From IMG/VR virus record IMGVR_UViG_3300025127_000198, positions 1 to 28,226 of that record: DNA of 28,226 bases. One strand, given 5' to 3'. A program made the position numbers and the translations under genes. Source of the DNA: a virus. Below the pieces are notes generated by a model. The model had not been told where the DNA came from. It searched no databases and saw nothing but the letters and a program-made list of their open reading frames with translations. This document shows, piece after piece, positions 3,605-22,720 of the stretch. Each line of letters starts with the position of its first letter. The first letter of the stretch is position 1.

Positions 3605-3661
3605 GGATAGGGTGCTTTTCTCATCGGTTGAGAGGGGTGACGCAATCCCCACACCCTATCC
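3605..3661 (-). other. Long hairpin between major tail and chaperone genes
   Basis: A perfect 10-bp inverted repeat (GGATAGGGTG / CACCCTATCC) brackets the intergenic space, with a nested GGGG/CCCC hairpin inside it. No U-tract follows on the transcribed strand, so it is unlikely to be a classical terminator. It may lower expression of the chaperone and tape measure relative to the abundant tail-tube protein, or protect the 3' end of the upstream message. Confidence 0.5.
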
Positions 3662-3676
3662 AAGAGTGCGTCGAAA

Positions 3677-4816
3677 TCAATCAAATACGAGCGTCACCTC
3701 ATCCTCGCCGCTTGAGCTTGCCAGAGCGACAAAGTTGACACTATAACGGATCATGTCCGCGTCTGGCGAGTCGCGTTGCGTTGGGTCAAGTTCGGTCACG
3801 TTGCAGTTGATCTTCATGCGCTTGCCGGTGGTATCGCCGATAGTAAAAAGCAAATCCTTCTGGACGTTGCGACGGAACTCGTTGAAAAGATTCACCTCAT
3901 CCTTGCGAACCAAAAAGTCGAGCGAGCCGGTGACTTCGCGGTAAGCCGGAACCGTTACGTCTGCCGCCGAACTGCTCCCGTATTCGGTATTGAGTAAGTC
4001 AATACCCGTATTGATCGACAGGCTACCGCCTAAATGCGTGATAGATGTCGAGCCGTTATCAAGCGACAGCGTTCCCGCCGTGCCAAACAACGGATCGCCT
4101 GCGAGCGTTGGCGATGGCGTAAACGGCTTGACTACATCGTTGTCAGACCAAGAAGACGAGGCAATTGTCAACGTGTTGGTCGAGTAATTGACAGCGGTGA
4201 CTTGCACGTTGTCGGTGCTTCCAACGCTAATGACCGAAAACGGTGAGAAGAAATCGGCATCGTCAACGACTAACGCGGTTGCGCTACTACCTGCCCCACT
4301 CGCCAAACTGTTCCCTGTCTGGATATAGTCCTTGCCGATACCGCTCGCCGTCCATGTAGCATATGAATCGCCCGACCAATTGAAGGTTAAGTTTTGAATG
4401 ACCGCACCAAAAACGCCTTCCGAAAGGTCGGAAGTTTTGCGGTAGATGCTCGCCGACAACGCGGTCGGGTCTTTTAGCAAGCTATACGTCACCGAAGAAC
4501 CGCCGCTTACCGTTTCCGTTCCGAGTGCGTGCTTTAAAAACAGACCGATGTCCGGCGCAGTTCCGGCAGAACCCGAAGGCCGCAAGATGCCCGATGCGCT
4601 GAATGGTTGCACCGGCGTTCTTGTGATTGTTCGCTCTACGCGGCTTCGCGTGTCGCGTCGGTCGTTAGGCATTTCACGCCCAACAGGTGCGCCCATCGTT
4701 ATTGACGTAGCGCGAAACGCATCCGTCGCGGCAGGCTTGACCGCTGTTCCATAGCTTGACTCGGCAACGATAAAGCCGACTAAGTCCGAGCCGTACGAAA
4801 AATTATCAACTCCCAT
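3677..4816 (-). CDS. Major tail (tube) protein
   Basis: A 379-aa Ser/Thr/Gly-rich, beta-strand-rich protein just upstream of the tail assembly chaperone, the usual place of the tail-tube subunit. The C-terminal half has the pattern of phage tube proteins (repeated short beta strands ending in RYSVNFVALASSSGEDEVTLVFD). Residues about 172-233 form a compact beta module (GSSATALVVDDADFF onward) resembling one in the capsid protein and one in the connector; see findings. ATG start preceded by ACAGGAGACAAAAA. The upstream gene's TAA stop forms the start of that leader, so the two are translationally close. The same leader occurs before the gene at 26326. Confidence 0.85.
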   Translation of the reverse strand: MGVDNFSYGSDLVGFIVAESSYGTAVKPAATDAFRATSITMGAPVGREMPNDRRDTRSRVERTITRTPVQPFSASGILRPSGSAGTAPDIGLFLKHALGTETVSGGSSVTYSLLKDPTALSASIYRKTSDLSEGVFGAVIQNLTFNWSGDSYATWTASGIGKDYIQTGNSLASGAGSSATALVVDDADFFSPFSVISVGSTDNVQVTAVNYSTNTLTIASSSWSDNDVVKPFTPSPTLAGDPLFGTAGTLSLDNGSTSITHLGGSLSINTGIDLLNTEYGSSSAADVTVPAYREVTGSLDFLVRKDEVNLFNEFRRNVQKDLLFTIGDTTGKRMKINCNVTELDPTQRDSPDADMIRYSVNFVALASSSGEDEVTLVFD

Positions 4817-4831
4817 TTTTTTGTCTCCTGT

Positions 4832-5308
4832 TTAGGAAGTGTAAACTAACAATTGCATTTCGGCTCGTTGCTGAAAAGTCGAACCATCCGCGCCGATTTC
4901 GCTCGCGTCAATACGTTCTAAAAAAACTTGATCCACTGCATCGCTTAGAGTCGATTTATTGATCAACTCTTGCACCGCCCGACAGGTGCGCCATAGTCGG
5001 ATTGTTATCATCTCCGTACCGGAGTAGGTCGCCGAGGATTGACTCGTTGTGACAATGACCTCGATGCTTATATAATGCAGTTGCCGTTGATCGGGCGAGT
5101 TGACCGCCTCGGTCGATGTCGGAACAATTACGAGGTTTACGTTGGCCGGATAATTTTCTTGCGGCGACCGCCAGAAATAGTCAACGCCGTCAAGCGTTAT
5201 CCCGTCACCATACGAAGTATCCAATGCGGCGAGCTTGGCCGTCATTCCGGCCTGTAAGGTCGTTATGAGCGAGTTAGCCGCGTCTTGTGGGTTTATCGTT
5301 CCCGCCAT
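4832..5308 (-). CDS. Tail terminator candidate (minor tail protein)
   Basis: A 158-aa protein between the tail completion gene and the major tail protein. That is the position of the tail terminator (lambda gpU-like) in siphoviruses. The N-terminus is helical and the middle contains a beta-rich segment with VNLVIVPTSTEAVNSP and HYISIEVIVTT, compatible with the terminator fold, but no diagnostic motif can be named. It overlaps the upstream gene by 16 nt and is separated by only 15 nt from the major tail gene, so it belongs to the same transcript. The assignment rests mainly on gene order and length. Confidence 0.6.
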   Translation of the reverse strand: MAGTINPQDAANSLITTLQAGMTAKLAALDTSYGDGITLDGVDYFWRSPQENYPANVNLVIVPTSTEAVNSPDQRQLHYISIEVIVTTSQSSATYSGTEMITIRLWRTCRAVQELINKSTLSDAVDQVFLERIDASEIGADGSTFQQRAEMQLLVYTS

Positions 5309-5784
5309 CGGGTCGAACCTTTCATCGCCTTCTCAACGTCTTTTCTCATTTCCTTCGCCCAATCGTTGACGAGTCCTTGATCGACTTTGACAAACGGTCG
5401 GGCGGGCATTTTCTTCGTTCCGTACTGGTGAAACTTCGCATATTTAATTCTTGTGCCTATGATTAACTGACGACCGCCTGCCCTATTGAAAACCATCTGA
5501 CGGCTCGACTCGTTTGTCAGTGAGTCGCGGAGATGGCCGCGTAAAACAAGCAACGGGCGGTTTGGAAAATGGCGATTTTTCCAAGCGGCATATTTTTTAT
5601 TCAAATTAGGCCAATCGTAGCCGATACTTTTGCCCTTACTTGTAAACGCTTTGTCGATGCGCTCTGTCCAATTTCTTTTTATACGCAACGCCGCGCCGCC
5701 GTCAAAGGGACGTTCTCCCCATTCGCGGAGTTCGCCCTCAACGCCCTCTAATTTTTCCAAGCCTGCGACGCGAATTTCAATCAT
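5293..5784 (-). CDS. Tail completion / virion morphogenesis protein (Mu gpG / P2 gpS-like)
   Basis: A 163-aa basic protein. The stretch YAKFHQYGTKKMPARPFVKV is the signature of the phage virion morphogenesis family (Mu gpG, P2 gpS; also like HK97 gp10 proteins), in which HQxG and MPARPF are conserved. These proteins act at the head-tail joining or tail completion step. The segment around LLVLRGHLRDSL is also typical. It starts by ATGA overlap with the small gene upstream and overlaps the terminator candidate downstream. Family is well supported; whether it acts on the head or tail side is not decided by sequence. Confidence 0.8.
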   Translation of the reverse strand: MIEIRVAGLEKLEGVEGELREWGERPFDGGAALRIKRNWTERIDKAFTSKGKSIGYDWPNLNKKYAAWKNRHFPNRPLLVLRGHLRDSLTNESSRQMVFNRAGGRQLIIGTRIKYAKFHQYGTKKMPARPFVKVDQGLVNDWAKEMRKDVEKAMKGSTRWRER

Positions 5785-6029
5785 TCGGCTTTTTCTTTAG
5801 CCTTTTTTACTGCGGCTTTTTTTGGCGCAGGCTCGCCGGTCAGCGCGTCAATCGCGGCTTGTATGTTGGCCTGTTTTTGGTTCATCTGCTCAACATATCC
5901 CGCGCCCTCTGCGGGAACTTTTGCGGTTTCGTCAATCGCCACTTGTATTTTTTCTATACCCTCGGCATCGGGGCGAACGCCTGCCGGTAAGATTGCGCTT
6001 GCAATATCGGCGACAGTAGGTTTCGACAT
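5781..6029 (-). CDS. Small Ala/Lys-rich virion-region protein
   Basis: An 82-aa protein of unknown function. The N-terminal part is helical and acidic (around EGIEKIQVAIDETAKVPAEGAGYVEQMNQKQANIQAAIDAL is predicted coiled or helical in character), and the C-terminus is a lysine/alanine tail (PKKAAVKKAKEKAE). A GGAGTTAAAG site precedes the ATG; the upstream gene's stop codon is embedded in this ribosome-binding site, so translation is likely coupled. It lies between the head-tail connector and the tail completion gene. I recognise no family. Confidence 0.75.
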   Translation of the reverse strand: MSKPTVADIASAILPAGVRPDAEGIEKIQVAIDETAKVPAEGAGYVEQMNQKQANIQAAIDALTGEPAPKKAAVKKAKEKAE

Positions 6030-6033
6030 TTCT

Positions 6034-6720
6034 TTAACTCCTTAACAGTGACAGCGAACCGCCTGCTGATTCGCGCTCTATATCTGCGGACGGAATATCA
6101 TATAGACCGTTCCGAATGTTGTCCATTATTCGGTTTCTCTCGACAATAAGCGGCTCAAGAAGTTCGTCCGTCCCTGTAGCCGATGAGCTATAAGCGGCGC
6201 GTTGTGTTCGTATCGCCGACATAGTAGCGTTTAACGTCTTGAGAATATTTGATGCGTCAGAGCAGGCGTTATAAGTGATTTGCGTGTTTGCGTCGGCCTT
6301 TAATTCTATAAACGGAACAATCTCGACAACAATCTCGCCGTCAGTGTTGACTATATCATCATCAATAATCATATACCGTTGATTGTCGCCTTGTATTTTT
6401 ATAAAGTCACCGCGTCGAACCGATCCGACGAGCGTTCCCGTCGATGCCTTCAGCGACAAAATCGTGTCCATCAAGTCGGCGGTTTCTTTCAAAACAATTT
6501 GACCGCCGCCCGACTTTGCTAATTGCCCGCCCTGTGGAGCAACCGGCGCGGCATATCCGCGACCGCGCAAAATGCCGTTGATCTCGCTGAAATCTTGCGT
6601 GATAAATCCCTCGACCTCGGTGCTTGACGGGTCGCTGTTTGTGTCAATGGTGAACTGCTGAACCATTGCCTGCACATCGGCAAGTTCACAATACCCATCT
6701 GTCGATAGATCAATCGCCAC
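6034..6720 (-). CDS. Head-tail connector / adaptor candidate
   Basis: A 228-aa protein with a GTG start that overlaps the end of the 57-aa gene by 11 nt. Its N-terminus (CELADVQAMVQQFTID, then EVEGFITQDFSEINGILRGRGY) has the short helical arrangement of head-completion or adaptor proteins (gp6/DUF1320-like), which sit on the portal. The middle, residues about 92-150, is a beta segment (VRRGDFIKIQGDNQRYMIID onward) resembling modules in the capsid and major tail proteins. The C-terminus is helical with ERNRIMDNIRNGLYDIP. Position between capsid and tail completion genes supports a connector role, but the call is by context. Confidence 0.6.
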   Translation of the reverse strand: MAIDLSTDGYCELADVQAMVQQFTIDTNSDPSSTEVEGFITQDFSEINGILRGRGYAAPVAPQGGQLAKSGGGQIVLKETADLMDTILSLKASTGTLVGSVRRGDFIKIQGDNQRYMIIDDDIVNTDGEIVVEIVPFIELKADANTQITYNACSDASNILKTLNATMSAIRTQRAAYSSSATGTDELLEPLIVERNRIMDNIRNGLYDIPSADIERESAGGSLSLLRS

Positions 6721-6883
6721 TTGTCACCTCAGAAGTTGCCTTGCGCTTTTTGGTTGATCGCTTGGCTTTTGCTTTTGGTTTCGCCTCGTCGAATAATTCC
6801 ATTGTTGCCTCGTCAAAATCGGAGGCGTTGACGATAGCGAACCCGTCGGCGTGTTTGATTTTTATCGTTTTTATTTCTGGCAT
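6710..6883 (-). CDS. 57-aa protein downstream of the capsid gene
   Basis: A small ORF of 57 residues starting MPEIKTIKIKHADGF and ending in a Lys/Ala-rich tail. Small proteins with an 'I-K-H-A-D-G-F-A-I-V-N-A-S-D-F-D' type start are common just after the capsid gene in siphophages and Mu-like phages, with no proven function. The start lies 55 nt after the capsid stop, beyond a strong hairpin. The end overlaps the GTG start of the connector gene, which suggests translational coupling. The coding frame is clean, with a charged C-terminal tail, so I consider it real. Confidence 0.75.
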   Translation of the reverse strand: MPEIKTIKIKHADGFAIVNASDFDEATMELFDEAKPKAKAKRSTKKRKATSEVTSGD

Positions 6884-6900
6884 ATTTACCTAATCGGTTA

Positions 6901-6930
6901 ATGGGGCAAGGGATCGCTCCCCTGCCCCAT
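6901..6930 (-). other. GNRA-capped hairpin after the capsid gene
   Basis: A 30-nt inverted repeat with a 13-bp stem (one G-U pair in the transcript) and the tetraloop GCGA on the minus-strand RNA. It starts 9 nt after the capsid stop codon. No U-tract follows, so I read it as a 3'-end stabiliser or partial attenuator that raises capsid mRNA relative to downstream genes. Confidence 0.7.
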
Positions 6931-6938
6931 CGACAAAA

Positions 6939-8057
6939 CTATCCAAGAATACGAACGGCCAACTCTGGACGCAGTAGCGTCGCGCCATAGAGAATATCGT
7001 ATTCAAACTTCCACTGCTTTTCTTGGCGCGTCACTTCCAAGCGCATCGTCAAGCCTGTTTTCTCGTCCGTGACTTGTCTCATCATTTCCGAGTTCATGCT
7101 CGCGTCCATCAACGGGGCCATAGCGAAACCGAAAGCGTTGCGCTGAAAGCCGAGGTTGACAACGTGAGATGCGGCGAAAGTAATCGCGGCGTTGTCAGCA
7201 ACAGCCGCGTCCAGAGCGGGAGCAAACGTCAAGTTGCCGCCCGCAAAAGAAGAAACAACAAACTGCTGAGAGGAACCGGCGATGGTAAAGATGTCGCCTT
7301 CGACGGGGTTGTTGCTACCTGTGTCGATCCCGATGGTCGTATCGCCTGCGGCGGTTGACGCATCGTTGACCAACCAACTCGTCGGCGTTCCGTTGGCGTT
7401 GGTGAACGTGGGAATGTTCTGGTCGAGGTTCCAAGACGCGCCGAGCGCATAACCGATGTCACCGGCTATAATTCCCTCGGTCGATCCGCGGTAGGAAGCG
7501 TCTTGCAGAGCGCGGTTGTTAAGAGCATTTCCTTCGGCATCTGCGTCCAGAGCAACGGCACGATCTTCCAACGGTGCTTTAAACTCGTTGAGCTTTGCCC
7601 GTGCGCCGGTTGTCCAAGCGTTGAGGTTCGACGCGAAAGGCGTTGTGCCTGCCGTGCCTGCCTGCGAGTATACGCCCTTATACAAGCCGAGAATATAGCT
7701 GTCCACGTTGTTAGCTAACGAACGGACGGCCTCGTCGCCCTGTAGGGTCTGGAATGCGTCAACGTCGATCTGCGTGATCTGCTGATCGGTGAGAAAGAAA
7801 CCGGCCTTGTACCACTGGTTGAGAGAAATGGTCTTGCTCGTCAAGGTGGTATCGCCTGCCGCCGCAGAGGTGTTGCTCGTAGAAACTGCGGACGCGCTAA
7901 TTTCTGCGCCGACGGGGACGGTAATGGTATCGCCACGGTCGCGGGCGACATTGCTATAGGTCGAGTTGACCAAGCGGGGCATGACAGCGTTCTCGCGCAA
8001 AACTTCCAAGCCTCGCGCAATCAGCTTATCGACAAGAGGTGTTACTGTATTTGCCAT
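6939..8057 (-). CDS. Major capsid protein (P22 coat-like)
   Basis: A 372-aa protein that builds the head shell. It resembles the P22 coat (gene 5) family: the N-terminus has the pattern of an N-arm followed by VARDRGDTITVPVGAEI, then a helix-rich spine (GDEAVRSLANNVDSYILGLYKGVY). A beta-rich insertion at about residues 236-297 contains GDIFTIAGSSQQFVV, comparable with the domain inserted in P22-type coats, and is followed by the conserved region HVVNLGFQRNAFGFAMAPL. The length is normal for the HK97 fold without a large prohead protease region. No protease gene is visible upstream; a separate scaffold is. The start has an excellent AAGGAG site within a 129-nt structured leader. Confidence 0.92.
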   Translation of the reverse strand: MANTVTPLVDKLIARGLEVLRENAVMPRLVNSTYSNVARDRGDTITVPVGAEISASAVSTSNTSAAAGDTTLTSKTISLNQWYKAGFFLTDQQITQIDVDAFQTLQGDEAVRSLANNVDSYILGLYKGVYSQAGTAGTTPFASNLNAWTTGARAKLNEFKAPLEDRAVALDADAEGNALNNRALQDASYRGSTEGIIAGDIGYALGASWNLDQNIPTFTNANGTPTSWLVNDASTAAGDTTIGIDTGSNNPVEGDIFTIAGSSQQFVVSSFAGGNLTFAPALDAAVADNAAITFAASHVVNLGFQRNAFGFAMAPLMDASMNSEMMRQVTDEKTGLTMRLEVTRQEKQWKFEYDILYGATLLRPELAVRILG

Positions 8058-8186
8058 GCGGCAATCTCCTTAAAAAAAAGGTTATGGGTTGATACCCGTT
8101 GATATTGCTCTCGGAGCATCGCACCAGATTGCCGCTCGGCGGTAATGCGGTGAATATGTGAACTGCTTGCGCCTATGCTCCTGTTA
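8058..8186 (-). other. Structured leader of the capsid gene
   Basis: A 129-nt gap between scaffold and capsid genes, long for this operon. In the minus-strand RNA several small hairpins can form (TGCTC-CGA-GAGCA; GGGT-ATCA-ACCC; an imperfect ATTACCGC/GCGGCAAT stem), then CCTTTTTTTTAAGGAG leads into the capsid start. I see no convincing promoter. It may serve mRNA processing or stability that boosts capsid synthesis. Confidence 0.4.
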
Positions 8187-8924
8187 TTATCCGTCTACTA
8201 TTTCAACTTCGCCTTTAGATACTTCCGACACATATTTGCCGATCTCGGAGCGGCGTATGCGTTTCTTTCCGTTTTGCATGGCGGTTTCGCCGCCGTTAGC
8301 ACCCGACCCCGTTGACTCTGCGAACAGAAACGAATCCGATGCCCTTAATTCTTCGACCAGATCGGGAATGCCCTGCGGCGTTTTCCCGTCGGAACTCATC
8401 ACAGGGTTGCCCTGTGCATCTACGCGGACGGCGGTCGTTCCGTCTCGCTTGAGTTGCGGCCTTATTGCCCGAATGATATGCTCAACGGCTCGGTCGTTTC
8501 GCGCATGGGATTTAATGGCCGCATCTCTAATTTGGTTCTCAACGATGTGTATGTCAAGTGTCTGCTCTGCTGATTGGTATTGTTGCGACATTTCGTTGAT
8601 TTTTTGCTCGTAACTTTGGCGCATCGCCTCGGTGCGTTTGTCGAGCAGTTCGTCAATCTTGCCCTCGCTCAAAAGTTCTTTTTCGGTGCGTTGTTGCACC
8701 TCCTTCTGCGACTCGGCGAGTTGAGCTTGGAACTCGGCCTGCTTTTTTTTGAGTTCTTCGTTCTCGCGGTATAGGTTGCGGTTGTTGTTTCTGAACTCGT
8801 CGATTTTGTCGTTGCTGTCGGTCTGCAAAACGTATTTATCGCCGTCTTGCGTGTAATGCTCTTTGGTGCCCTCTGGCAGATTGTCAAAAGCACCCGCGTC
8901 GATGATGCTGTTAAGCGTCGCCAT
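8187..8924 (-). CDS. Head scaffolding protein
   Basis: A 245-aa, highly charged protein directly upstream of the capsid gene. Residues about 45-130 are Glu/Gln/Lys-rich and predicted to be a long coiled coil (NRNLYRENEELKKKQAEFQ onward), as in phage scaffolds. The N-terminus is a short domain, and the C-terminus is basic with GKKRIRRSEIGKYVSEV, a plausible coat-binding helix-turn-helix as in P22-like scaffolds. The ATG lies inside the last codons of the MuF gene, preceded by AAAGGAG, so translation is coupled. The first nine codons are duplicated at 17822; see findings. Confidence 0.85.
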   Translation of the reverse strand: MATLNSIIDAGAFDNLPEGTKEHYTQDGDKYVLQTDSNDKIDEFRNNNRNLYRENEELKKKQAEFQAQLAESQKEVQQRTEKELLSEGKIDELLDKRTEAMRQSYEQKINEMSQQYQSAEQTLDIHIVENQIRDAAIKSHARNDRAVEHIIRAIRPQLKRDGTTAVRVDAQGNPVMSSDGKTPQGIPDLVEELRASDSFLFAESTGSGANGGETAMQNGKKRIRRSEIGKYVSEVSKGEVEIVDG

Positions 8925-8937
8925 ATTTCTCCTTTAA
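8898..8937 (-). repeat. MuF/scaffold junction, copy 1 of a 40-bp duplication
   Basis: This stretch holds the last codons of the MuF gene, its stop, and the first nine scaffold codons. It is 35/40 identical to 17809-17848 on the plus strand. It is the native copy because both reading frames are intact here. Confidence 0.85.
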
Positions 8938-10008
8938 TTCTCTTACGGTTAGTGTGCGACCTTGTTGGTCGAGTAAGTCCTTCAACGTTATTTTTCCGTC
9001 TTTGTATAACTGCAACCGACCCGCGCCAATAGTCGCTTTCTGTTCGGCCTCGCTCATTGCGGCGAACGTCTTGGCGAACGTCGGAGTCGGGGCAGGCTTG
9101 CCGTCGATTGGAAACCGCTCGCCCCGTTGCGCGATGTCCTCGCTCAGTTCGGGGTCGAGGACGGCCTGCAAATCTTCCAACGATTTAAAGATCGGCGCGA
9201 GCGTCGTGCGGCAGTTAAAATGCCACGGCGGGGTACCCGGAAAACTTATCGGCGTTCCTCTAAACCCGCGCCCCGTTTGCAAATCCCACGCATACCCGTT
9301 CCGCGTCCGGCAGAGTATCGTCGTCCGGTTGTCGAGGACGGCGTTAGCCTGCACCCCGCGAATGACGTTTGCGTTGCGCTGATACGATGCCAAACGCGCC
9401 GAGTTTATCACAGTATCGGTTGCCGTTCGTATGAGAGTTTCCGCGCCTGCCTTCGATTTAAAAACCACCCCATCGCGAAACTGCAAAGACCGATTGCCGC
9501 GAATAATGCCGAGCATATCGTCAAGCGTTTGGTTGTTCTGTACTGCATAGTTTAGCGCGTCCTTTGTGTTGTCTTTTAGTCCTCGGCGTTGACGCGCCCA
9601 CCGCTCGGCAACCGTCAAGCCGGTTCTGTCGTTCGGCACAAGGCCGGTTTCTACTATTTCAAGCGCAACCTCAGACGATATTAATTTCGGCGCGATAGGT
9701 GCGCGAAACGCCTGCTGTGTGATAGACGCAACCGCCGCCGATTCGGTTGCCGCTAATCCGACAAACGCCTCGACCGATTGCGCGGCCATCGCAACATAAG
9801 TGCGGTCGATTGCTCGGTTGACCTGATCCAGAAGTTGCTCAAGCTGTCGGCGACTCCTCGGCTCGGCGGCTTTCAATAAATCGACAATCTCGCCTTGCAG
9901 TTCGTTGATCTGAGAAACTACGTCGCGTATTTGCCCGTTCTGGAACGCGATCAAGTCGAGATCGTGTTGCGTCAATAGCTGATCGACGCGCTCGTTTATT
10001 GTCGGCAT
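8911..10008 (-). CDS. Minor head protein (phage Mu F-like)
   Basis: A 365-aa protein of the phage head morphogenesis (MuF / SPP1 gp7) family, which joins the portal in the procapsid and travels with the head. The diagnostic block is in residues about 205-275: helix TDTVINSARLASYQRNA, then LDNRTTILCRTRNGYAW and PPWHFNCRTTLAPIF, in which the spaced Cys and His residues are conserved. The N-terminal half is alpha-helical. It starts 8 nt after the portal stop and its last 14 nt overlap the scaffold start. The last residues (LKEKYGDA) reappear at the end of the HTH protein at 17551-17835. Confidence 0.9.
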   Translation of the reverse strand: MPTINERVDQLLTQHDLDLIAFQNGQIRDVVSQINELQGEIVDLLKAAEPRSRRQLEQLLDQVNRAIDRTYVAMAAQSVEAFVGLAATESAAVASITQQAFRAPIAPKLISSEVALEIVETGLVPNDRTGLTVAERWARQRRGLKDNTKDALNYAVQNNQTLDDMLGIIRGNRSLQFRDGVVFKSKAGAETLIRTATDTVINSARLASYQRNANVIRGVQANAVLDNRTTILCRTRNGYAWDLQTGRGFRGTPISFPGTPPWHFNCRTTLAPIFKSLEDLQAVLDPELSEDIAQRGERFPIDGKPAPTPTFAKTFAAMSEAEQKATIGAGRLQLYKDGKITLKDLLDQQGRTLTVRELKEKYGDA

Positions 10009-10015
10009 TTAGCCG

Positions 10016-11395
10016 TTATCCTTCGGCCTGCATTACCGCTTGTATACCTGCCTGTAGGTCGAGCATCTCGCGTTCCTCTTGGGGCGACGTTTCTGGCCGG
10101 AGCAACTCGCCGCGATCATACAAGAAAAGCAGGTTGTCAACGGTCATATAACCGGCTTGCACGATCTGCATCAGTTTGACGGCCTCGTCGCCGGTCATCT
10201 GCTCGGCAAAGAAATCGTTGTTGAGAATGACCTCGACCCCTTCCGGCGTTGCGCCAATCCAGACGTTGAGCAGAGCGACGGCCTGCGTCAGACCACGGTC
10301 AAGCGTTTCGGTGATGCCGCCTAACGTCGCTTGATCACCTGCCGAGCGGATACGCATCGCGGCGGCGGCCTCGGCTTGGTGCTTCTGTTTTTCAAGCAAG
10401 CGACCGCCGAGCGCGGCCATTTTCGCCTCATCCTCGGCCAGTGCGTCGCGCATGGCCGTCAACCCTTCGCCCGTAAACTCTAAATAATACGCCTTTGCGT
10501 TCGGCTCCTCTGACCACCACGCCGCGCCTGCGCCTATGCGATACCCTTCGTTGGATTTGGGAAAGCCTGCGGCGATGGCCGTCGGTAGGCCAGTATAATG
10601 CAGGCCGTGATTGTAGTCACAAGAGAGCCGCCAATGGTGGAGGTTTACGTCAACGAGGTCGAGCAGAGGCGGCTTTTCGATATCCATGCCGACAGTATTC
10701 GCGTTGATGCAAACAAACGGAATATATTCAAGCGGCGCACCCGCTACCGTAGGGACGGCCTCGTCAACAAGGACGTACTGCTCGCGCTGAGAGGCCGCGC
10801 TCTTGACCTTGACATATACCCGCACGATATAAATGCCGTTCTCAAGCGAAAGAACGCGAAGGCGTTGTTGCTCGGTCTGCTCGTATTCGTCGTTGACATC
10901 CTCAACGTTTGCCATCTCCGACAAGACGACCATCGTCACAACCGACCGGCCACCGATGCGCTCGGTGCGCCAATTGATAATATTCTCGGCGACATACGGG
11001 ACAAGATACGGGCGGTTTTCCTCGCCGCTGTAATCGCATAGCAACCCATACCGCCCGACCGTCAACAGTTCGCGCATCGCCGTCTTTGCCAATCCGTCGA
11101 AACTGTCGTCGGTCATCGTTACGTCGCCAAGATACTGGTCTGCCGCACCTCCGGCGATAGACGGCGACCGGCGAAAACAAGCACCGACCATTCCCTGCAC
11201 CGTGCGAGCGGTCGCGTTAAAAAACAAGCCGCGCCGGATATACGCCATATATTCGTTCGGCGTTTGTGTGTCGAGCGGCGGGACGTAATCGGGGCCGCGA
11301 TCTATGACGGCGGCCTGCCCTTCGTGTGCGTCGCGGCATTTCTGCCAAAACGGAGACATATCGTCGTAAGATTGTGCGGTCGATTCAACTGGCAT
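10016..11395 (-). CDS. Portal protein (DUF4055-like)
   Basis: A 459-aa protein between terminase and MuF genes, the standard place of the portal, through which DNA enters and leaves the head. The N-terminal part (AYIRRGLFFNATARTVQGMVGACFRRSP) and the later RLLEKQKHQAEAAAAMRIRSAGDQATLGGI helix match what I know of the DUF4055 group of portals found with P22-like heads. Length is normal for that group. ATG start preceded by GAGGA 9 nt upstream. A 65-nt gap separates it from the terminase gene and contains an operator-like palindrome, so it may be separately controlled. Confidence 0.85.
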   Translation of the reverse strand: MPVESTAQSYDDMSPFWQKCRDAHEGQAAVIDRGPDYVPPLDTQTPNEYMAYIRRGLFFNATARTVQGMVGACFRRSPSIAGGAADQYLGDVTMTDDSFDGLAKTAMRELLTVGRYGLLCDYSGEENRPYLVPYVAENIINWRTERIGGRSVVTMVVLSEMANVEDVNDEYEQTEQQRLRVLSLENGIYIVRVYVKVKSAASQREQYVLVDEAVPTVAGAPLEYIPFVCINANTVGMDIEKPPLLDLVDVNLHHWRLSCDYNHGLHYTGLPTAIAAGFPKSNEGYRIGAGAAWWSEEPNAKAYYLEFTGEGLTAMRDALAEDEAKMAALGGRLLEKQKHQAEAAAAMRIRSAGDQATLGGITETLDRGLTQAVALLNVWIGATPEGVEVILNNDFFAEQMTGDEAVKLMQIVQAGYMTVDNLLFLYDRGELLRPETSPQEEREMLDLQAGIQAVMQAEG

Positions 11396-11410
11396 CTGTT
11401 GCGTTCCTCG

Positions 11411-11427
11411 TTAGCGTTTACCGCTAA
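11411..11427 (-). promoter_or_regulatory. Operator-like palindrome before the portal gene
   Basis: On the minus strand the gap before the portal reads TATATT-like AT-rich sequence, then TTAGC-N7-GCTAA, then GAGGA and the ATG. This is the same order of elements as in the three early promoters, with a spacer of 7 instead of 6 in the palindrome. The -35 is poor (a TTGTAA about 19 nt upstream of TATATA), so promoter activity is uncertain. Confidence 0.45.
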
Positions 11428-11460
11428 AATAAAAATATATAGTCATTTGCGCCATTTAGT

Positions 11461-12753
11461 TTACAAGCCGCGCACCCGCGAAACGCCGCCGTCGTTTTTG
11501 CCAATCATCAAATCGGTCAACGCCCATACAAGCGCGTCGAGGCGATCCGGCGATTCGCGGGAGTCGTGCGTATACATACAAAGTTGATCCTCTAACGAGG
11601 CGAACGTGCCGCAGTGATGAATGCGCCCCTGCTCGTATAAGGCCGCAATCGGTTCAGCGCGTAGAATCTTCCCCCGCGCCGCTCGGACGGCCTTGTAAGA
11701 CACGTTGCGGTCAACCGTACGAATCGTATGCTCGACCATATCGCCGCCTTGATTAACCTCGGCAACGATGCGGTCGGCGTTATATTTATAATACGCTTTT
11801 ATCGCTTGTATCGCCCATTCTTGCGGCGTGTATTGCCCGCTGAAATCCTCGACAACATATCCACGGTTGCCAATCATACCGGCGACCAATATGCCGGTTT
11901 CGTCGGCATCCTCGCCCGAAGTCACGGCGGGGTCAACGCCGACAACGATGCGCTCAAAGTGCGGCGGCGTTTCGCGTAAACGGTGCGCGTCGATCATCTC
12001 CCGCGACCAGAGCGCACCGACTACATCGTCGAGAATCTCGGCGTGTAGCTCTTGCCGTCCGAGGCGCGTCCCTTCGTAGCGTTCGACGATGCGCTTGGCG
12101 AACGACTCGGCCAAGTTTTGCAGGTTGTCGTACGTCGAGCCTCGCGTCACCGTGACCAGTTCGTCAGCAACCAATTCCCGCATTATCTGAACGGGCCTCG
12201 GCGTGGTCGTAATAACCGCCTGCGGCGATTCGCCCAAGCGCAGGCCGAGGTCGAGGTTGCTCCACGTTTCTTCGGCGTATCGGTATTTCGCCAACTCGTC
12301 GAGCCAAGCCGCGTCATGCTGTGGGCCGCGTAACTGATCCGGCTCGTCGCCAGAATAACAAACGCCAATCGCCCCGTTGGGCCAAGTCAATCGCCGCTTT
12401 GACGGCTCGTAGAGCGGTCGGTTCCGGCCTGCCGTCGCCAATATACCCGACTCCCCTTCAACCATTACATCGCGCACATCTGCTTTTGTTTCGCCGACGA
12501 GCGCGATGCGTTCGCGTCCCTGCCTTATCTGCTCATGCACCCATTCAGCCCCGCATCGCGTCTTGCCGAATCCGCGCCCCGCCATAATAAGCCAGACGCG
12601 CCAGTTTCCTTCCGGCGCGATCTGATCGGGACGCGCCCAGAACCGCCAGTCCTCCAGAATCTCAGCGGCCTCGTTTGCCGTTAATTCTTTAAGTATCCTC
12701 GCCCGACTCTCGTCGTCGAGCGAGGCGATCAATTGCGCTGTGGAGTTTGTCAA
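11461..12753 (-). CDS. terL: Terminase large subunit (TerL)
   Basis: A 430-aa packaging motor. The ATPase part has the Walker A GRGFGKT at about residues 59-65 (K64), a Walker B-type region around DAAWLDELAKY, and the coupling motif ITTTPRP. The C-terminal RNase H-like nuclease starts near IVVGVDPAVTSGEDADETG, with catalytic aspartates, and continues to DSRESPDRLDALVWALTDL near the end. It matches the Terminase_6 type. The chosen TTG start (12753) overlaps the small subunit by 65 nt and has only a weak AGG upstream. A second in-frame TTG lies at 12732, so the start is uncertain by a few codons. Product is not in doubt. Confidence 0.95.
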   Translation of the reverse strand: MTNSTAQLIASLDDESRARILKELTANEAAEILEDWRFWARPDQIAPEGNWRVWLIMAGRGFGKTRCGAEWVHEQIRQGRERIALVGETKADVRDVMVEGESGILATAGRNRPLYEPSKRRLTWPNGAIGVCYSGDEPDQLRGPQHDAAWLDELAKYRYAEETWSNLDLGLRLGESPQAVITTTPRPVQIMRELVADELVTVTRGSTYDNLQNLAESFAKRIVERYEGTRLGRQELHAEILDDVVGALWSREMIDAHRLRETPPHFERIVVGVDPAVTSGEDADETGILVAGMIGNRGYVVEDFSGQYTPQEWAIQAIKAYYKYNADRIVAEVNQGGDMVEHTIRTVDRNVSYKAVRAARGKILRAEPIAALYEQGRIHHCGTFASLEDQLCMYTHDSRESPDRLDALVWALTDLMIGKNDGGVSRVRGL

Positions 12754-14409: not shown

Positions 14410-14446
14410 CGGCTCAAACTATTTTCATCTTTCTTTAAAAAAAGTG

Positions 14447-14502
14447 TTGACATTAAGAAATCAGGTCTGTATATTCCCTATAGACATTAGCAATAACGCT
14501 AA
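14447..14502 (+). promoter_or_regulatory. Early promoter-operator module 1
   Basis: TTGACA (14447-14452), 17 nt, TATATT (14470-14475), then the palindrome TTAGCAATAACGCTAA (14487-14502) about 6 nt after the expected start point. An A-tract precedes the -35. A near-consensus sigma70 promoter with an operator positioned to block it. It drives the first early genes. Confidence 0.88.
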
Positions 14503-14523
14503 TGCAAACGAACCGAGGAAAAA

Positions 14524-14745
14524 ATGGCAACGCCGCAAATCGAAGCAACGATTGAAATCCCAACCATCGAAACTTTCAACGTTGCCGGAAATCACACAAA
14601 AGAATACGCCATTGAAATGGCGAAGATCAACAACGAGGAAGACGATTGGACGTACGTCGCCGAGCCGAAAAACGCCGACGATCCCGAAGGAGTTTGGACA
14701 ATAAAGATTTTTGACGAAGATGATTTTTTCGTAGGCACGATCTAA
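14524..14745 (+). CDS. Early protein, small acidic
   Basis: A 73-aa acidic protein, the first product of early module 1, with an AACCGAGGAA site before the ATG. Acidic residues dominate the second half (NNEEDDWTYVAEPKNADDPE, FDEDDFF). No transmembrane segment or recognised domain. Acidic first-expressed phage proteins often bind host proteins or mimic DNA, but nothing here proves that. Followed by a 9-bp hairpin before the next gene. Confidence 0.75.
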   Translation: MATPQIEATIEIPTIETFNVAGNHTKEYAIEMAKINNEEDDWTYVAEPKNADDPEGVWTIKIFDEDDFFVGTI

Positions 14746-14752
14746 ACCAACC

Positions 14753-14776
14753 GGCGAGGGGCCGGAACCCCTCGCC
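14753..14776 (+). other. Intercistronic hairpin H1
   Basis: Perfect 9-bp stem GGCGAGGGG/CCCCTCGCC with loop CCGGAA, placed between two early genes and directly before an AACCGAGGAG site. No U-tract. The same stem recurs at 15519 and 16128. Confidence 0.8.
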
Positions 14777-14796
14777 ATAACCGAGGAGATTTAACA

Positions 14797-15512: not shown

Positions 15513-15518
15513 CCGAAC

Positions 15519-15544
15519 TGGCGAGGGGTTTCGACCCCTCGCCA
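15519..15544 (+). terminator. Terminator-like hairpin H2
   Basis: Perfect 11-bp stem TGGCGAGGGGT/ACCCCTCGCCA with a TTCG tetraloop, then AACTATTTTTGATTATTA. The U-tract is short and displaced, so termination may be partial. It ends the first early transcript just before module 2. Confidence 0.65.
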
Positions 15545-15574
15545 AACTATTTTTGATTATTATTAAAAAAAGTA

Positions 15575-15629
15575 TTGACAAGGGAAATACAGGCTGTATA
15601 TTACTTGTAGACGTTAGCAATGACGCTAA
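15575..15629 (+). promoter_or_regulatory. Early promoter-operator module 2
   Basis: TTGACA (15575-15580), 16 nt, TATATT (15597-15602), palindrome TTAGCAATGACGCTAA (15614-15629), one base different from module 1. The A-tract upstream and AACCGAGGA downstream are also shared. Confidence 0.88.
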
Positions 15630-15651
15630 TGTAAAACGAACCGAGGAAAAA

Positions 15652-16119
15652 ATGGCTTATATGAGTCAAGATAAGAAAAAAGAAATCGCACCGAAGGTAA
15701 AAGAAATCTGCAACCGTCACGGCATAAAAGCGACCTTAAGCGTTCTTAATGGCATGACGCTCTGTCTCAATATTAAATCTGGAGAGATTGATTTTTTCGC
15801 CGACAGTGATTTAGACCCCGTACAGGAACGCGGATACATACAGGTAAACGAATATCACTATAAAGAATACTACACCGGCAAAGCAAAGGCATTTTTGTCG
15901 GAAGTTATTCCCGCGATAAACAACGGCAACCACGACAACAGCGATATTATGACCGATTATTTTGATGTCGGTTGGTATATCAGCGTCAACGTCGGCAAGT
16001 TTGACAAGCCTTATATTTTCACCGGCGCGAAGGAAGAAGCCGCACCCGTCGAGCCTACACCACAACCTCAGACAATGCCCTCGACATTCTACGCGCAGGG
16101 CATCGGTAACGAACAATAA
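15652..16119 (+). CDS. Conserved phage early protein (LPD29-like)
   Basis: A 155-aa protein. Its body (KEICNRHGIKATLSVLNG, then LCLNIKSGEIDFF, YTGKAKAFLSEVIPA, and SDIMTDYFDVGWYISVNVGK) follows a pattern I recall from a widespread phage/plasmid protein family related to the LPD29 polyvalent-protein domain, of unknown function. A Pro-rich C-terminal tail (EEAAPVEPTPQPQTMP) looks flexible. The frame is open to 15475, but this would run through the promoter and operator; the ATG at 15652 follows AACCGAGGAAAAA. It is the first gene of module 2. Confidence 0.75.
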   Translation: MAYMSQDKKKEIAPKVKEICNRHGIKATLSVLNGMTLCLNIKSGEIDFFADSDLDPVQERGYIQVNEYHYKEYYTGKAKAFLSEVIPAINNGNHDNSDIMTDYFDVGWYISVNVGKFDKPYIFTGAKEEAAPVEPTPQPQTMPSTFYAQGIGNEQ

Positions 16120-16127
16120 ACGCAACC

Positions 16128-16151
16128 GGCGAGGGGTTCCGGCCCCTCGCC
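16128..16151 (+). other. Intercistronic hairpin H3
   Basis: Perfect 9-bp stem GGCGAGGGG/CCCCTCGCC with loop TTCCGG, directly before AACCGAGGAG. It has the same stem as H1. Confidence 0.8.
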
Positions 16152-16171
16152 ACAACCGAGGAGAGAAGAAA

Positions 16172-16384
16172 ATGACCGATCCTAATATCACCGAAGAACA
16201 AGCCGAAATTTTTGAAGAATTTATTCACAGCCTGCCAACGGAAGAAAAGAAAAAATACACCCGTCTTTATAGGGCCAGAAACAAACGACGTTTTGAGGAT
16301 TATTTTATTGAATTCTTATCGGAAACAGATACAACAGAAATCCGTCGAAAACTGACGGGTAAAATGTTGCCGAGTTATTCATAA
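16172..16384 (+). CDS. Small early protein, helical and charged
   Basis: A 70-aa protein. The N-terminal half is acidic (TEEQAEIFEEFIHSLPTEEK) and the rest basic (RLYRARNKRRFEDYF), probably all helical. No known domain. The frame is open to 15962, but the ATG at 16172 follows AACCGAGGAG with good spacing, and upstream it would overlap the previous gene. Part of the module 2 operon. Confidence 0.7.
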   Translation: MTDPNITEEQAEIFEEFIHSLPTEEKKKYTRLYRARNKRRFEDYFIEFLSETDTTEIRRKLTGKMLPSYS

Positions 16385-17316: not shown

Positions 17317-17450
17317 TATTAGGACGTGAAATGATATTAGGGCGAGCGGCGGGGAAAGCGGCAACTGGGGAGTCTGCCGCGAAAACTGCGAGAGCGAGCG
17401 CAAAGCGCAACGCCAAGACCGCAGGGGCCGCTCGCCCGACCAACTTCTAA
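17313..17450 (+). CDS. 45-aa Ala/Lys/Arg-rich peptide (tentative)
   Basis: A short ORF that starts in the stop codon of the zinc-ribbon gene (ATGA) and has a second ATG at 17331, with the start sequence duplicated (ATGATATTAGG twice, 18 nt apart). The product is Ala-, Lys- and Arg-rich (AAKTARASAKRNAKTAGAAR), like a histone H1-type tail, with no acidic residue after position 20. Coupling favours translation; the low complexity makes this uncertain. Confidence 0.4.
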   Translation: MILGREMILGRAAGKAATGESAAKTARASAKRNAKTAGAARPTNF

Positions 17451-17523
17451 CCCGTTCGCGGCAACGAGAGGAGCAGGCCGCGAGAAATAAACCAACCAAT
17501 CAATCACCGACAACGACCAGAGT

Positions 17524-17558
17524 GTCAACGTCAAATAAGGAGATAGCAACATGGGATT
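17524..17558 (+). repeat. 35-bp direct repeat, left copy
   Basis: Identical to 17853-17887. It contains the AAATAAGGAGATAG leader and the first codons (ATGGGATT) of the HTH gene; the other copy starts the SSB-like gene in the same way. A further about 22-bp similarity extends upstream (ATCAATCACCGACAACGACCA at about 17499-17519). Confidence 0.9.
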
Positions 17559-17835
17559 AGAAAAACTTCTTACCGCAGAAGAAGTTGCTGATTACTTGGG
17601 CCTAAAAGTAAGTTCGGTCAATAGAATGCGTTGGTTTAAGGAAGGTCCGGCTTATATAAAGTGGGGCGGGAAAACAAATGGCTGTATTAGGTATAGAGTG
17701 TCAGACGTAAATAAATGGTTAGAGGAAAACAAGGTAACAAATCAATCAACTAATCAATCAACTAATCAATCAACCGACAACGACCAAAAGATGGAAAGAT
17801 TACGCCCGTTGAGGGAAAAATATGGCAACGCTTAA
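17551..17835 (+). CDS. Excisionase/MerR-type HTH protein with repeat tail
   Basis: A 94-aa protein. Residues about 5-60 form an excisionase-type winged HTH (LLTAEEVADYLGLKVSSVNR, then YRVSDVNKWLEENK). Next comes NQST repeated three times, encoded by tandem CAATCAACTAAT units, and a C-terminal tail ending LREKYGNA that matches the MuF C-terminus. Codons are more AT-rich than in flanking genes. The gene lies between two copies of a 35-bp sequence that covers its own start and the next gene's start. Such proteins bind DNA as Xis/AlpA-like directionality factors or regulators, but no integrase is seen. It looks recently acquired. Confidence 0.75.
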   Translation: MGLEKLLTAEEVADYLGLKVSSVNRMRWFKEGPAYIKWGGKTNGCIRYRVSDVNKWLEENKVTNQSTNQSTNQSTDNDQKMERLRPLREKYGNA

Positions 17836-17848
17836 CAGCATCATTGAC
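17809..17848 (+). repeat. MuF/scaffold junction, copy 2
   Basis: 35/40 identical to 8898-8937 on the opposite strand, including the overlapping stop and ATG and the first nine scaffold codons (MATLNSIID). After that the frame runs 8 codons into the next leader and stops, so this copy is a fragment and not a working gene. Confidence 0.85.
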
Positions 17849-17852
17849 AAGG

Positions 17853-17887
17853 GTCAACGTCAAATAAGGAGATAGCAACATGGGATT
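17853..17887 (+). repeat. 35-bp direct repeat, right copy
   Basis: Identical to 17524-17558, supplying the ribosome-binding site and first codons of the SSB-like gene. The similarity upstream is interrupted by about 65 nt that include the MuF/scaffold fragment. Confidence 0.9.
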
Positions 17888-18503
17888 TTTGAATCTGAAC
17901 AGCGAACGCAAATTTCTACCCCGCCTTGATATGGATTTACGCGCCGGACGGTTTTTTGCCGTCGAGCGCACACAGAACGCCGCCGGAGAATGGGAGTCGG
18001 AAAAGATCGAAGTCGAGAAGCCTCGGTTCGTCGCCGACCTCGCCAACTGCGAAATCGGTTGGACAGCATTCATTGAGAAACGCCCCGACTCGGTTATGCA
18101 TCATTGCGCCGACGGTATGCCGCCGCAACCCACGCCCGAACATAAGGCGGCGTTTGGTTTTAACGTCAAGATGATCGGCGGGGAGTTCGACGGCAGTTTG
18201 CGGAAATTCGGCAAACAGGGTTTGACGATAGGCAAGGCATTTGACGATCTGGTCGACGCGTGGCAGGCGTTGCCGGAATCGACCGACCCGACGAAATGCC
18301 CTGTCGTAGCTGTCACCGGAACGACTCCGGTCAAGGCCGGTCAATCTACCAACTACGCGCCAAAATGGGGTATCGTTGAGTTTGTCGAACGCCCTGCTGA
18401 GTTCGACAATCATATCCCTGCGCGCAGGGACGTCGCCGCAGAAAAGGCCGCAGAGGAGGCGAATCAAGCCACTGTCGCCGCCGACGACGTAGAGTTCCTG
18501 TAA
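17880..18503 (+). CDS. Candidate single-stranded DNA-binding protein
   Basis: A 207-aa protein just before a RusA-like resolvase and the primase/helicase. The centre (FGFNVKMIGGEFDGSLRKFGKQG) is beta-rich, and the C-terminus is an acidic tail with a hydrophobic end (AADDVEFL) like the SSB tip (DDIPF) that binds partner proteins. It has no close match that I can name, so SSB is an inference from tail, length and neighbours. The ATG follows AAATAAGGAGATAGCAAC, a leader different from the AACCGAGGAG of the early genes and shared with the HTH gene. Confidence 0.55.
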   Translation: MGFLNLNSERKFLPRLDMDLRAGRFFAVERTQNAAGEWESEKIEVEKPRFVADLANCEIGWTAFIEKRPDSVMHHCADGMPPQPTPEHKAAFGFNVKMIGGEFDGSLRKFGKQGLTIGKAFDDLVDAWQALPESTDPTKCPVVAVTGTTPVKAGQSTNYAPKWGIVEFVERPAEFDNHIPARRDVAAEKAAEEANQATVAADDVEFL

Positions 18504-18951: not shown

Positions 18952-21232
18952 ATACGCGGCGCGAGGTTGGCAGGTTTTCCCCTGCCATTTTATAACGACG
19001 AGAGGAACGTGTAGTTGCGGCGAGGAATGCGGCAACGCCGGAAAACATCCAATGACCTATCGCGGTCTAAACGACGCTACGACCGACGAGCAACAGATAA
19101 AGGATTGGTGGAGCCAATCACCCCACGCGAACGTCGGCATCCGCACCGGCGAGGTGTCCGGCATTACAGCGATTGATATTGACCCGCGTCACGACGGCGA
19201 TGCTACTTGGCGCGAACTGGAGCAGACCGTCGGCCCCATCCCAGACACGCCAACGCAGACGACAGGCGGCAACGGGCAACACATCATCGTCAATTATACG
19301 CCGCGCCTCCACTCTCAGAATGATGTCGCGCAGGGTATCGACATAAAAAACAACGGCGGGTATATCCTCGCCGAACCGAGCAATCACGCAAGCGGCGGTA
19401 GATACGAGTGGGAGCTTGCCCTTCATTACGATGACTACGCGCCCGTCGATCTGGCCGAGGCTTGGCCCAATGGCCTTGAGAGGCTCGTTGAACTACAGCA
19501 GGGCAATCGCCCCCAGTTGACACGCACAACGCGACAGGCGGCAACAGGGGAGCAAATAGACCGCGAAGTCGGGCAGGTGATCGCCGAGGGATCGCGCAAC
19601 GCTACGTTGACATCTATAGCCGGATCGCTACGCCGTCGCGGTCTTGACGCGGAACAGATCGCCGCGATGCTTCACCAATACAATCAACAGTTTTGTTCGC
19701 CCGAACTCGACGCGACCGAAGTTGATCGCATCGCGCAGGGCATGATGCGATACGAACCCGCGCCGCCCATGCCGTCAACCATAGACCCCGACCTCGGCGT
19801 GACCGCTGAGTCGGCCTCTACGCCGTCCGGCGGTGGATATAGCGTTGTCGGTCTACCGATGACCGACGGCGGCAACAGAGACCGTCTTGTGGCCCGTTAC
19901 GGCTCGCAAATATTATACGTTCCAGAGCAGGGTTGGCATCTTTGGGACGGCGTGCGGTGGCGACTCGACACCGAAACCCGCATCCAAGAAATGGCCCTCG
20001 ACACGGCGCGAACAATACGCGCAGAGGAACGCACCGGCATCGTCGATAAACAGGGCGTTGACATTGCCGAGAAATGGAGTCTGTCGAGCGAGTCGCTCGT
20101 CCGCGTAAACGCAATGATAAAACTGGCGCAATCGCACCCGTCAATCGTCTGCGGCGTTTCCGATCTCGACACGCACCCGTTTTTGTATAACGCCGCGAAC
20201 ACTACGGTCGACCTGCTGACGGGCGAAACGCTCGACCCCGACCCGACGCACCGCTTGACCCAACGCTCGCGCATGATCTACAAACCCGACGCGACTTGTC
20301 CGCACTGGCGCGAGTTCGTCGGGCAGATATTGCGCGAGGACGAAGCCGTGATACGCCACCTCCAGAAATACCTCGGCCTTTCGTTAACGGGCGATATGAC
20401 GAGCGAAGCGATGTTCATTCTTTACGGTGAAGGCGCGAACGGTAAAAGTATCCTACTTGAAGTTTTGGCTTATCTGATGGGCGATTATCTAAGCACGGCA
20501 CCGGCCCATACGTTTCTCAGTTCGTCGCGCAACGAGTCGATACGAAACGACCTCGCCATGTTGCGCGGGGCGCGTCTTGTAACGGTATCGGAGACAAATA
20601 AAGGGTCGTCGCTTGACGAGGCCGTAATTAAGCGCACTGTCTCCGGCGACCAAGAGACGGCGAGGTTTCTCCATAAAGAATATTTCTCCTTCCATCCGCA
20701 GTATAAAATCCTTCTGGCGACAAACAATAAACCAGAGATCAAAGGCGGCACCCACGGCACATGGCGACGGCTCCATCTCATAGAGTTCGGCGTAAAGTTT
20801 GGCTCGGCAGGTCATCCGGCGGCAGGTAAAAAAGACGAGATTATAGCACGGCTCAAGAGCGAGGCGAGCGGTATTCTTAATTGGCTAATTGAAGGTTATC
20901 AACTCTACCGCGCCGAGGGATTAGAACAGCCCGACGCGGTGCGGGATTCGACAGCAAGCTACCGCGAAGATCAAGACCCGTTAATAGATTTTTTCGGCAC
21001 CTGTTGCGAGATCGGCAGTGACTACACTGTGACCACGAGCGACCTGCGCGAAGCATACAACGCGCACACAGGCGAAGATCGGTCTGCGGTCTGGTTCGGT
21101 CGCCTTATGTCCGAGCACGGATACAAGCCGGAAAGCGTCGGCGGCAGGGGCAACCGAACCCGCGTATATCGCGGCATCATGTTGAGCGAGGACGGGCAAG
21201 CATTGCTCGCTCGTAACGATTTCCAATACTAA
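18920..21232 (+). CDS. Primase-polymerase/helicase (P4 alpha-like)
   Basis: A 770-aa replication initiator. The N-terminal domain (residues about 5-180) is a bifunctional primase/polymerase: a Cys/His insert CSCGEECGNAGKHP, catalytic D86 and D88 in AIDIDP, and the TGGNGQHIIV motif. The central and C-terminal part is the D5/P4-type SF3 helicase with Walker A GEGANGKS (residues 503-510), later LATNNKPEIKGGTHGTWRRL, and a winged-helix tail. The ATG at 18920 follows CCGAGGATTGAGG; an upstream ATG (18884) is possible but would lengthen the overlap with RusA. In P4 the homologous protein binds repeats at the origin, which makes the array at 13634-13961 a candidate target. Confidence 0.93.
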   Translation: MSQIKRKFALEYAARGWQVFPCHFITTRGTCSCGEECGNAGKHPMTYRGLNDATTDEQQIKDWWSQSPHANVGIRTGEVSGITAIDIDPRHDGDATWRELEQTVGPIPDTPTQTTGGNGQHIIVNYTPRLHSQNDVAQGIDIKNNGGYILAEPSNHASGGRYEWELALHYDDYAPVDLAEAWPNGLERLVELQQGNRPQLTRTTRQAATGEQIDREVGQVIAEGSRNATLTSIAGSLRRRGLDAEQIAAMLHQYNQQFCSPELDATEVDRIAQGMMRYEPAPPMPSTIDPDLGVTAESASTPSGGGYSVVGLPMTDGGNRDRLVARYGSQILYVPEQGWHLWDGVRWRLDTETRIQEMALDTARTIRAEERTGIVDKQGVDIAEKWSLSSESLVRVNAMIKLAQSHPSIVCGVSDLDTHPFLYNAANTTVDLLTGETLDPDPTHRLTQRSRMIYKPDATCPHWREFVGQILREDEAVIRHLQKYLGLSLTGDMTSEAMFILYGEGANGKSILLEVLAYLMGDYLSTAPAHTFLSSSRNESIRNDLAMLRGARLVTVSETNKGSSLDEAVIKRTVSGDQETARFLHKEYFSFHPQYKILLATNNKPEIKGGTHGTWRRLHLIEFGVKFGSAGHPAAGKKDEIIARLKSEASGILNWLIEGYQLYRAEGLEQPDAVRDSTASYREDQDPLIDFFGTCCEIGSDYTVTTSDLREAYNAHTGEDRSAVWFGRLMSEHGYKPESVGGRGNRTRVYRGIMLSEDGQALLARNDFQY

Positions 21233-21249
21233 CCGAAGAGATATAAACG

Positions 21250-22270: not shown

Positions 22271-22309
22271 AGTGGCAGAGGCGCGTTTTTGGCCTCTGCT
22301 ACTTTTTTT
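22271..22309 (+). terminator. Rho-independent terminator of the replication operon
   Basis: A 12-bp stem (AGTGGCAGAGGC / GCCTCTGCTACT with one G-U pair) and a T7 tract. It ends transcription from module 2 just before module 3. Confidence 0.88.
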
Positions 22310-22330
22310 CATCTTTTTTTAAAAAAAGTG

Positions 22331-22386
22331 TTGACATACTTGTGGTATGTGATTATTGTTCTTGTAGACGTTAGCAATAACGCTAA
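22331..22386 (+). promoter_or_regulatory. Early promoter-operator module 3
   Basis: TTGACA (22331-22336), 17 nt, TATTGT (22354-22359; weaker -10), palindrome TTAGCAATAACGCTAA (22371-22386), identical to module 1. The A-tract and AACCGAGGA are also present. Confidence 0.85.
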
Positions 22387-22408
22387 CGCAAAACAAACCG
22401 AGGAAAGA

Positions 22409-22720
22409 ATGGAAAACGAAACTTTTATAATCAAAACAATTCAAAACGTATCTGCGAGTCCTGCAATGTTTCAGACCAAAGAACTGCAAGCCGAAGCAAA
22501 AAAATATCAAGTTGAAATTGAAATGCCTTACGCCGGTATTCATTTGCAAAAGCATATTCAGCCCGAAGATGCACATTTCACGGTCAATGTTGAAAAAATC
22601 CGGTTCCGGTTTCTCAAGGACGGGCTGGAAAGCAACTGGTATATTACTCCCGACGGCGAAAAATGGAATGTTCACATGGAGAAAACGCTGAAAAATCTTA
22701 TTGAACTTTTAAACCAATAA
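22409..22720 (+). CDS. Early protein of module 3
   Basis: A 103-aa protein of unknown function, first gene after promoter module 3, with an AACCGAGGAAAG site. It is mixed alpha/beta (AKKYQVEIEMPYAGIHLQ; VNVEKIRFRFLKDG) and ends in a helix (EKTLKNLIELLNQ). The frame is open to 22232, but that would run through the terminator and promoter, so the ATG at 22409 is chosen. No membrane segment. Confidence 0.72.
   Translation: MENETFIIKTIQNVSASPAMFQTKELQAEAKKYQVEIEMPYAGIHLQKHIQPEDAHFTVNVEKIRFRFLKDGLESNWYITPDGEKWNVHMEKTLKNLIELLNQ

Follow-up and report, generated by a model that had tools for sequence, protein, structure and literature searches.

In T4-type phages, PeSLs have been described as 'mobile regulatory cassettes', with genes shuffled at the repeats (Arbiol 2010; Comeau 2014, both as cited in PMC4503421). 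Conserved boundary sequences are short repeats at the borders of phage modules, where homologous recombination could join modules (PMC3029335). The genomes of cluster K mycobacteriophages carry SAS and ESAS repeats immediately before the start codons of non-structural genes; some of these include an inverted repeat, and the 13-bp SAS, present in 11 to 19 copies, has a proposed role in translation initiation (PMC3203893). Finally, the 439-bp element MPME1 is bounded by terminal inverted repeats, comes with a 6-bp addition and has inserted at several sites (PMC3029335).

Here we compare with these systems a locus of an uncultivated phage, in which an HTH gene is flanked on both sides by the leader of its downstream neighbor. 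The window, i.e., the whole stretch of DNA analyzed, is the 28,226-bp linear IMG/VR virus record IMGVR_UViG_3300025127_000198. We consider it probable that accessory genes of this phage turn over by recombination at repeated leaders, the HTH unit being one case, in which a foreign regulator was inserted.

Results

The late genes of the phage (a MuF-type head protein, the scaffold and their neighbors) are on the minus strand of the window, and the early genes, including a RusA-like resolvase and a Prim-Pol/D5 primase-helicase, are on the plus strand. The AT-rich region between the two blocks holds an inverted near-repeat of about 69 nt (13634-13700/13890-13958, 78%), possibly a control or replication region. 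A 41-nt direct repeat (27068-27108/27863-27903, 83%) was also noted within a 576-aa minus-strand ORF.

Self-comparison of the window confirmed the exact 35-bp repeat of 17524-17558 at 17853-17887 given in the initial annotation, and the repeat reaches 38 nt with one mismatch when counted from 17521 and 17850. The stretch upstream of it, likewise said to be duplicated, shares the 14-nt ACCGACAACGACCA (at 17506 and 17773), which lies within a 35-nt stretch of 89% identity (17486-17519 versus 17752-17786). Leader copy 1 (17485-17558, plus strand), containing the exact repeat and the ATGGGATT start of the downstream gene, precedes the HTH gene. Of the second copy, the upstream half (17739-17786, plus strand) holds about three copies of the 12-nt unit AATCAATCAACT and encodes the tail of the HTH protein, and the 3' half (17850-17887, plus strand) precedes a gene for a 207-aa protein; the halves are split by 64 nt at 17787-17850. 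A simple consensus scan of the plus strand over approximately 17485-17900 gave no match to a promoter or terminator for the leader or the HTH gene.

Between the leaders lies a 94-aa HTH_17 (excisionase/AlpA-type) gene (17551-17835, plus strand), which starts with the first 8 nt of the downstream gene and ends at the stop codon of MuF. The ORF matched Pfam HTH_17 (E=3e-11, 43.8 bits; cut-off 27) and PHROG 66, 'excisionase and transcriptional regulator' (1e-10), and has 39% GC, in agreement with its earlier description as an AT-rich excisionase-type HTH gene between the leaders. Its GC3 is 0.37, compared to 0.65 for the downstream gene, although composition alone is weak evidence because the window has other AT-rich stretches. 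The HTH domain extends to about residue 60, and from about 17739 the ORF, which stays open through three pieces differing in origin, runs through the copied upstream half of the leader and then a MuF fragment to MuF's own stop codon, these two pieces making up the last third of the gene. At its other end, the HTH gene opens with the same ATGGGATT as the 207-aa gene and then diverges, and it therefore uses the start of the downstream gene; the original start probably lay close to the EKLLTAEE motif. Judged from its domain and place, the protein may be an early DNA-binding regulator, produced together with the replication genes. No close relatives of the HTH protein were found in IMG/VR or GTDB genomes; elsewhere, there was one 44% match in plasmids and matches of only 31-46% in phages, mainly of Vibrio and Gordonia. 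A DNA search of annotated phages with the HTH locus and the MuF junction gave no match, and a search of Rfam gave nothing relevant.

The interruption of the second leader had been described as about 65 nt holding a copy of the MuF/scaffold junction. We found 64 nt, in which 41 nt are 88% identical to the phage's own junction (8892-8932, minus strand). The fragment (17787-17850, plus strand) corresponds better to a relative with a 94% identical scaffold (L028), matching it at 18/18 positions over 17787-17804 and at 30/31 over 17818-17848; the two are collinear, and the intervening stretch of about 44 nt is absent. Within 17787-17816, up to 18 consecutive nt agree exactly with the L028 allele and no more than 6 nt with the phage's own, and a plain copy of the own junction was discarded in view of this weaker match. 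The 3' end of the HTH gene is thus joined to late-gene sequence, as proposed in the initial annotation, this piece being closer to the allele of a relative. The scaffold ATG within the fragment opens a 17-codon frame (17822-17875, plus strand) that stops 4 nt short of the downstream ATG, an arrangement in which translational coupling to the downstream gene would be possible.

The downstream gene (17880-18503, plus strand) encodes the conserved 207-aa early protein, all homologues of which, including that of L050, start with MGF. It had been called SSB-like, an assignment to which family, PDB-sequence and fold searches give no support: the protein matched nothing in Pfam or PHROG and no PDB sequence, and its structure model, of low confidence (mean pLDDT 61), had no fold match. 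A search of GTDB genomes for a host returned no match to the 207-aa family. The earlier proposal that entry of the HTH gene duplicated the leader of an SSB-like gene stands as to the leader, present on both sides, while the SSB identity is unproven.

We compared the locus among the 11 IMG/VR loci that encode the 207-aa protein. In the close relatives (L003, L004, L005/L006/L009 and L007; 90-94% aa identity), a single leader runs straight into the 207-aa gene, and the outgroups L010-L013 (66-68%) and L050 (59%) have no HTH gene before it. Window positions 17558 (17543 for L003) and 17849 map to overlapping positions in the relatives, an overlap (24-41 nt) of the kind expected for an insert with a direct repeat on either side. 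No HTH_17 domain above the family cut-off was found in 10 relative records, these being fragments. The comparison with related phages suggested in the initial annotation thus yielded empty sites in close relatives and outgroups alike, i.e., an uninterrupted leader there and the cassette here, in line with its view of an acquired unit; given these empty sites, the HTH gene was most likely gained in this lineage. The unit is known from one metagenomic contig, with no second record confirming it; L025 was rejected as an independent source, being a contig that duplicates window 609-12369 at 100% identity.

Two GWCAACGWC-like sites are common to 10 leaders and can pair as GAC-AAC-GACC-loop-GGUC-AAC-GUC. 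In leader 1, the conserved paired sites GACAACGAC/GTCAACGTC (17509-17532, plus strand) form a possible hairpin, and in leader 2 they are found at 17776-17784 and 17853-17861 (plus strand), separated by the MuF fragment, which thus sits between the arms of the conserved hairpin (or between the paired sites). Across the 10 leaders, 97% of cells pair, double changes occur in 2 of 7 pairs, and sliding the partner abolishes pairing, but because so few pairs vary, a two-site DNA operator is equally possible. The minimum-energy fold of the second leader still has the arms paired across the fragment.

Two structured elements were noted upstream of leader 1. The first, at 17340-17437, is GC-rich, with a closing stem (GGGCGAGCGGC/GCCGCTCGCCC), two inner hairpins and a folding z-score of -3.75; it is kept in L003, L004, L005 and L007 with a few compensatory changes, had no Rfam match and is a candidate phage RNA. 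L050 has a different GC-stem element in its place. The second, a conserved hairpin directly before the leader (17455-17484; UUCGCGGC-AACGAGAGGAGCAG-GCCGCGAG), has an RBS-like loop that hardly varies, and a pattern search of IMG/VR returned it only from the same known relatives.

Self-comparison also identified three further repeated leader families in the early region. Leader P (14415-14530, 15543-15656 and 22301-22415, all plus strand) consists of a promoter-like TTGACA/TATNNT pair, a TTAGC-N5-GCTAA dyad, which may be a repressor operator, and the RBS AACCGAGGA. Each of the three copies was noted to precede a different gene. Leader H is a GC hairpin (GGCGAGGGG/CCCCTCGCC) followed by AACCGAGGAG (14743-14789 and 16117-16164, plus strand); at about 15515-15543, the hairpin is present without AACCGAGGAG. 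The third family, an RBS leader, occurs at 15066, 16135 and 22734. A leader pattern scan found the leader of the 207-aa gene at no other gene among the relatives compared, and the HTH unit therefore lacks the shared P and H leaders; pattern matches in L045 and L047 were set aside as chance, all true matches being known relatives.

The gene order of the window is P-F0-H-F1-F2-P-F3-H-F4-F5, versus P-F3-H-F5 in L004, P-F0-H-F5 in L043/L044 and P-F41-P-F42-F5 in L007/L046. The window therefore strings together cassettes found singly in relatives. The segment with gene F4 (16165-16379, plus strand) is not in the relatives, and its breakpoints overlap in the leader by 13-27 nt. Past 22301, the genes that stand between leaders have been exchanged: the window carries F17 and F18 there, L041 carries F31-type genes, and L044 carries F38 with an F31-type gene. 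All five clean indels relative to the relatives (the HTH gene, F4, F1-F4, F0-F2 and F28) had a leader-repeat overlap, of 10-118 nt, and a sixth, larger gap versus L046 (22308-23091) had only a 5-nt T-rich overlap. Leaders, which make up 13% of the region, contained 14 of 24 distinct breakpoints (binomial tail 3e-7, a value that is approximate because the relatives share history and the alignments extend through repeats). F28 is inserted in L004/L041 and L007/L046 at the position equivalent to window 21231-21240. It was noted that this gene (L041:4831-6009, L046:6464-7453), absent at that position of the window, follows the primase at ACCGAGGA-type repeats; judged by eye, its product (MRYGSVCSGVEAASLAWEPLGW...) looks like a DNA cytosine methyltransferase.

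Discussion

The best-supported reading of the HTH unit is that it represents a recent, unusually messy case of gene turnover at leader repeats. The insertion has an empty site in relatives, a foreign composition, a captured start codon, a 38-nt flanking repeat and a composite 3' end. In the wider pattern, breakpoints overlap in leaders, and the same cassettes are single in relatives and serial in the window. We propose that each early accessory gene stands behind one of a small set of reusable leaders, of promoter/operator/RBS or hairpin/RBS type, and that such genes would be gained, lost or swapped with breakpoints inside these leaders. This turnover may be driven by recombination at the leaders, either homologous or through microhomology, that probably takes place during co-infection; an incoming gene would be expressed at once with early timing, and a displaced gene would retain its leader. 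At the HTH locus, a foreign HTH_17 regulator gene would have been inserted at the start of the 207-aa gene, with recombination leaving a copy of the leader on each side. Recombination between the 38-nt copies would then remove the whole unit along with the MuF fragment and restore an uninterrupted leader.

Points against this explanation are that the unit is seen in a single contig, that its leader type occurs at no other gene of the relatives compared and that leader homology does not account for the MuF fragment; template switching may be among the mechanisms that brought this fragment in. The fragment is also where the most serious alternative finds its footing, namely that a one-off illegitimate rearrangement, e.g., multi-jump replication template switching, joined HTH gene, leader and MuF piece independently of the other leader cassettes. 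This would fit the internal deletion of the fragment, its 5' border without leader homology, the 12-nt tandem expansion in the leader copy and the presence of this leader type at no other gene. We nevertheless regard it as unlikely, since the ends of the HTH insertion coincide with the leader, and the other four clean indels in this region show the same. An assembly artefact or chimera is considerably less probable still: a single metagenomic contig is at hand, and with small k an assembler could join separate paths through the 35-bp repeat, but the MuF fragment differs from the phage's own allele and has borders without long repeats, so that repeat collapse cannot produce it, and the HTH ORF is open across all three pieces. 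The idea of a self-mobile, ultra-small MPME-like element moving by its own ends can practically be dismissed, as the size of about 330 bp, the HTH protein and the empty site in relatives would suit it, but there are no terminal inverted repeats (those seen were short pairs attributable to chance, none of them terminal), the window holds one copy without close relatives in IMG/VR or GTDB genomes, and what flanks the unit is the leader of the target gene rather than an element end.

Returning to turnover at repeated leaders, a broader version, to which we give slightly less than an even chance, would be that small Prim-Pol phages have a means of gene capture independent of the T4 type, with the HTH unit as a recent capture that gained a new C-terminus and took a MuF piece into the hairpin loop while the arms were kept. 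If this is true, leader families double as recombination sites and expression signals, and genes enter singly, pre-wired into the early program. The locus makes it possible to test whether the break positions of phage mosaics are set by leader repeats rather than by the sequences of the genes.

The initial annotation knew of no described parallel for this structure. That view is not supported, as at least four other gains or losses in the early region break at repeated leaders, and such shuffling is known elsewhere. The locus resembles PeSLs in having repeated regulatory leaders between early genes, with genes shuffled there (as cited in PMC4503421), and the gene content between leader repeats is shuffled among related phages here too. 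PeSLs are composite promoter and stem-loop motifs of large T4-like phages, whereas P (promoter and dyad) and H (hairpin) are repeated separately here and are unrelated in sequence, and the HTH-flanking leader has no promoter or terminator match. The phage itself, known from a 28-kb record that encodes Prim-Pol/D5 replication as well as MuF and scaffold, falls outside the T4 type. By analogy with conserved boundary sequences, the HTH unit would behave as a boundary-repeat cassette, with the difference that the boundary is a leader with a start codon, duplicated within one genome. Compared to SAS, the leaders are longer, number two to three copies each and lie at breakpoints of gain and loss. 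Like a moron (PMC3029335), the HTH gene is an extra gene of differing composition, in one genome and absent from relatives; unlike one, it has no promoter and terminator of its own that we could find and relies on its neighbor's leader and start. With MPMEs it shares an ultra-small insertion in a phage genome and an empty site in relatives, but the features of MPME1 were not found at the unit. Swapping of accessory genes bounded by leaders is thus already known in other phages, and the present case is a closely resolved example outside the T4 group, its resolution resting on empty sites and single-cassette relatives, in which the HTH gene has taken its start codon from a neighboring gene, and leader and late-gene DNA supply the C-terminus of its product.
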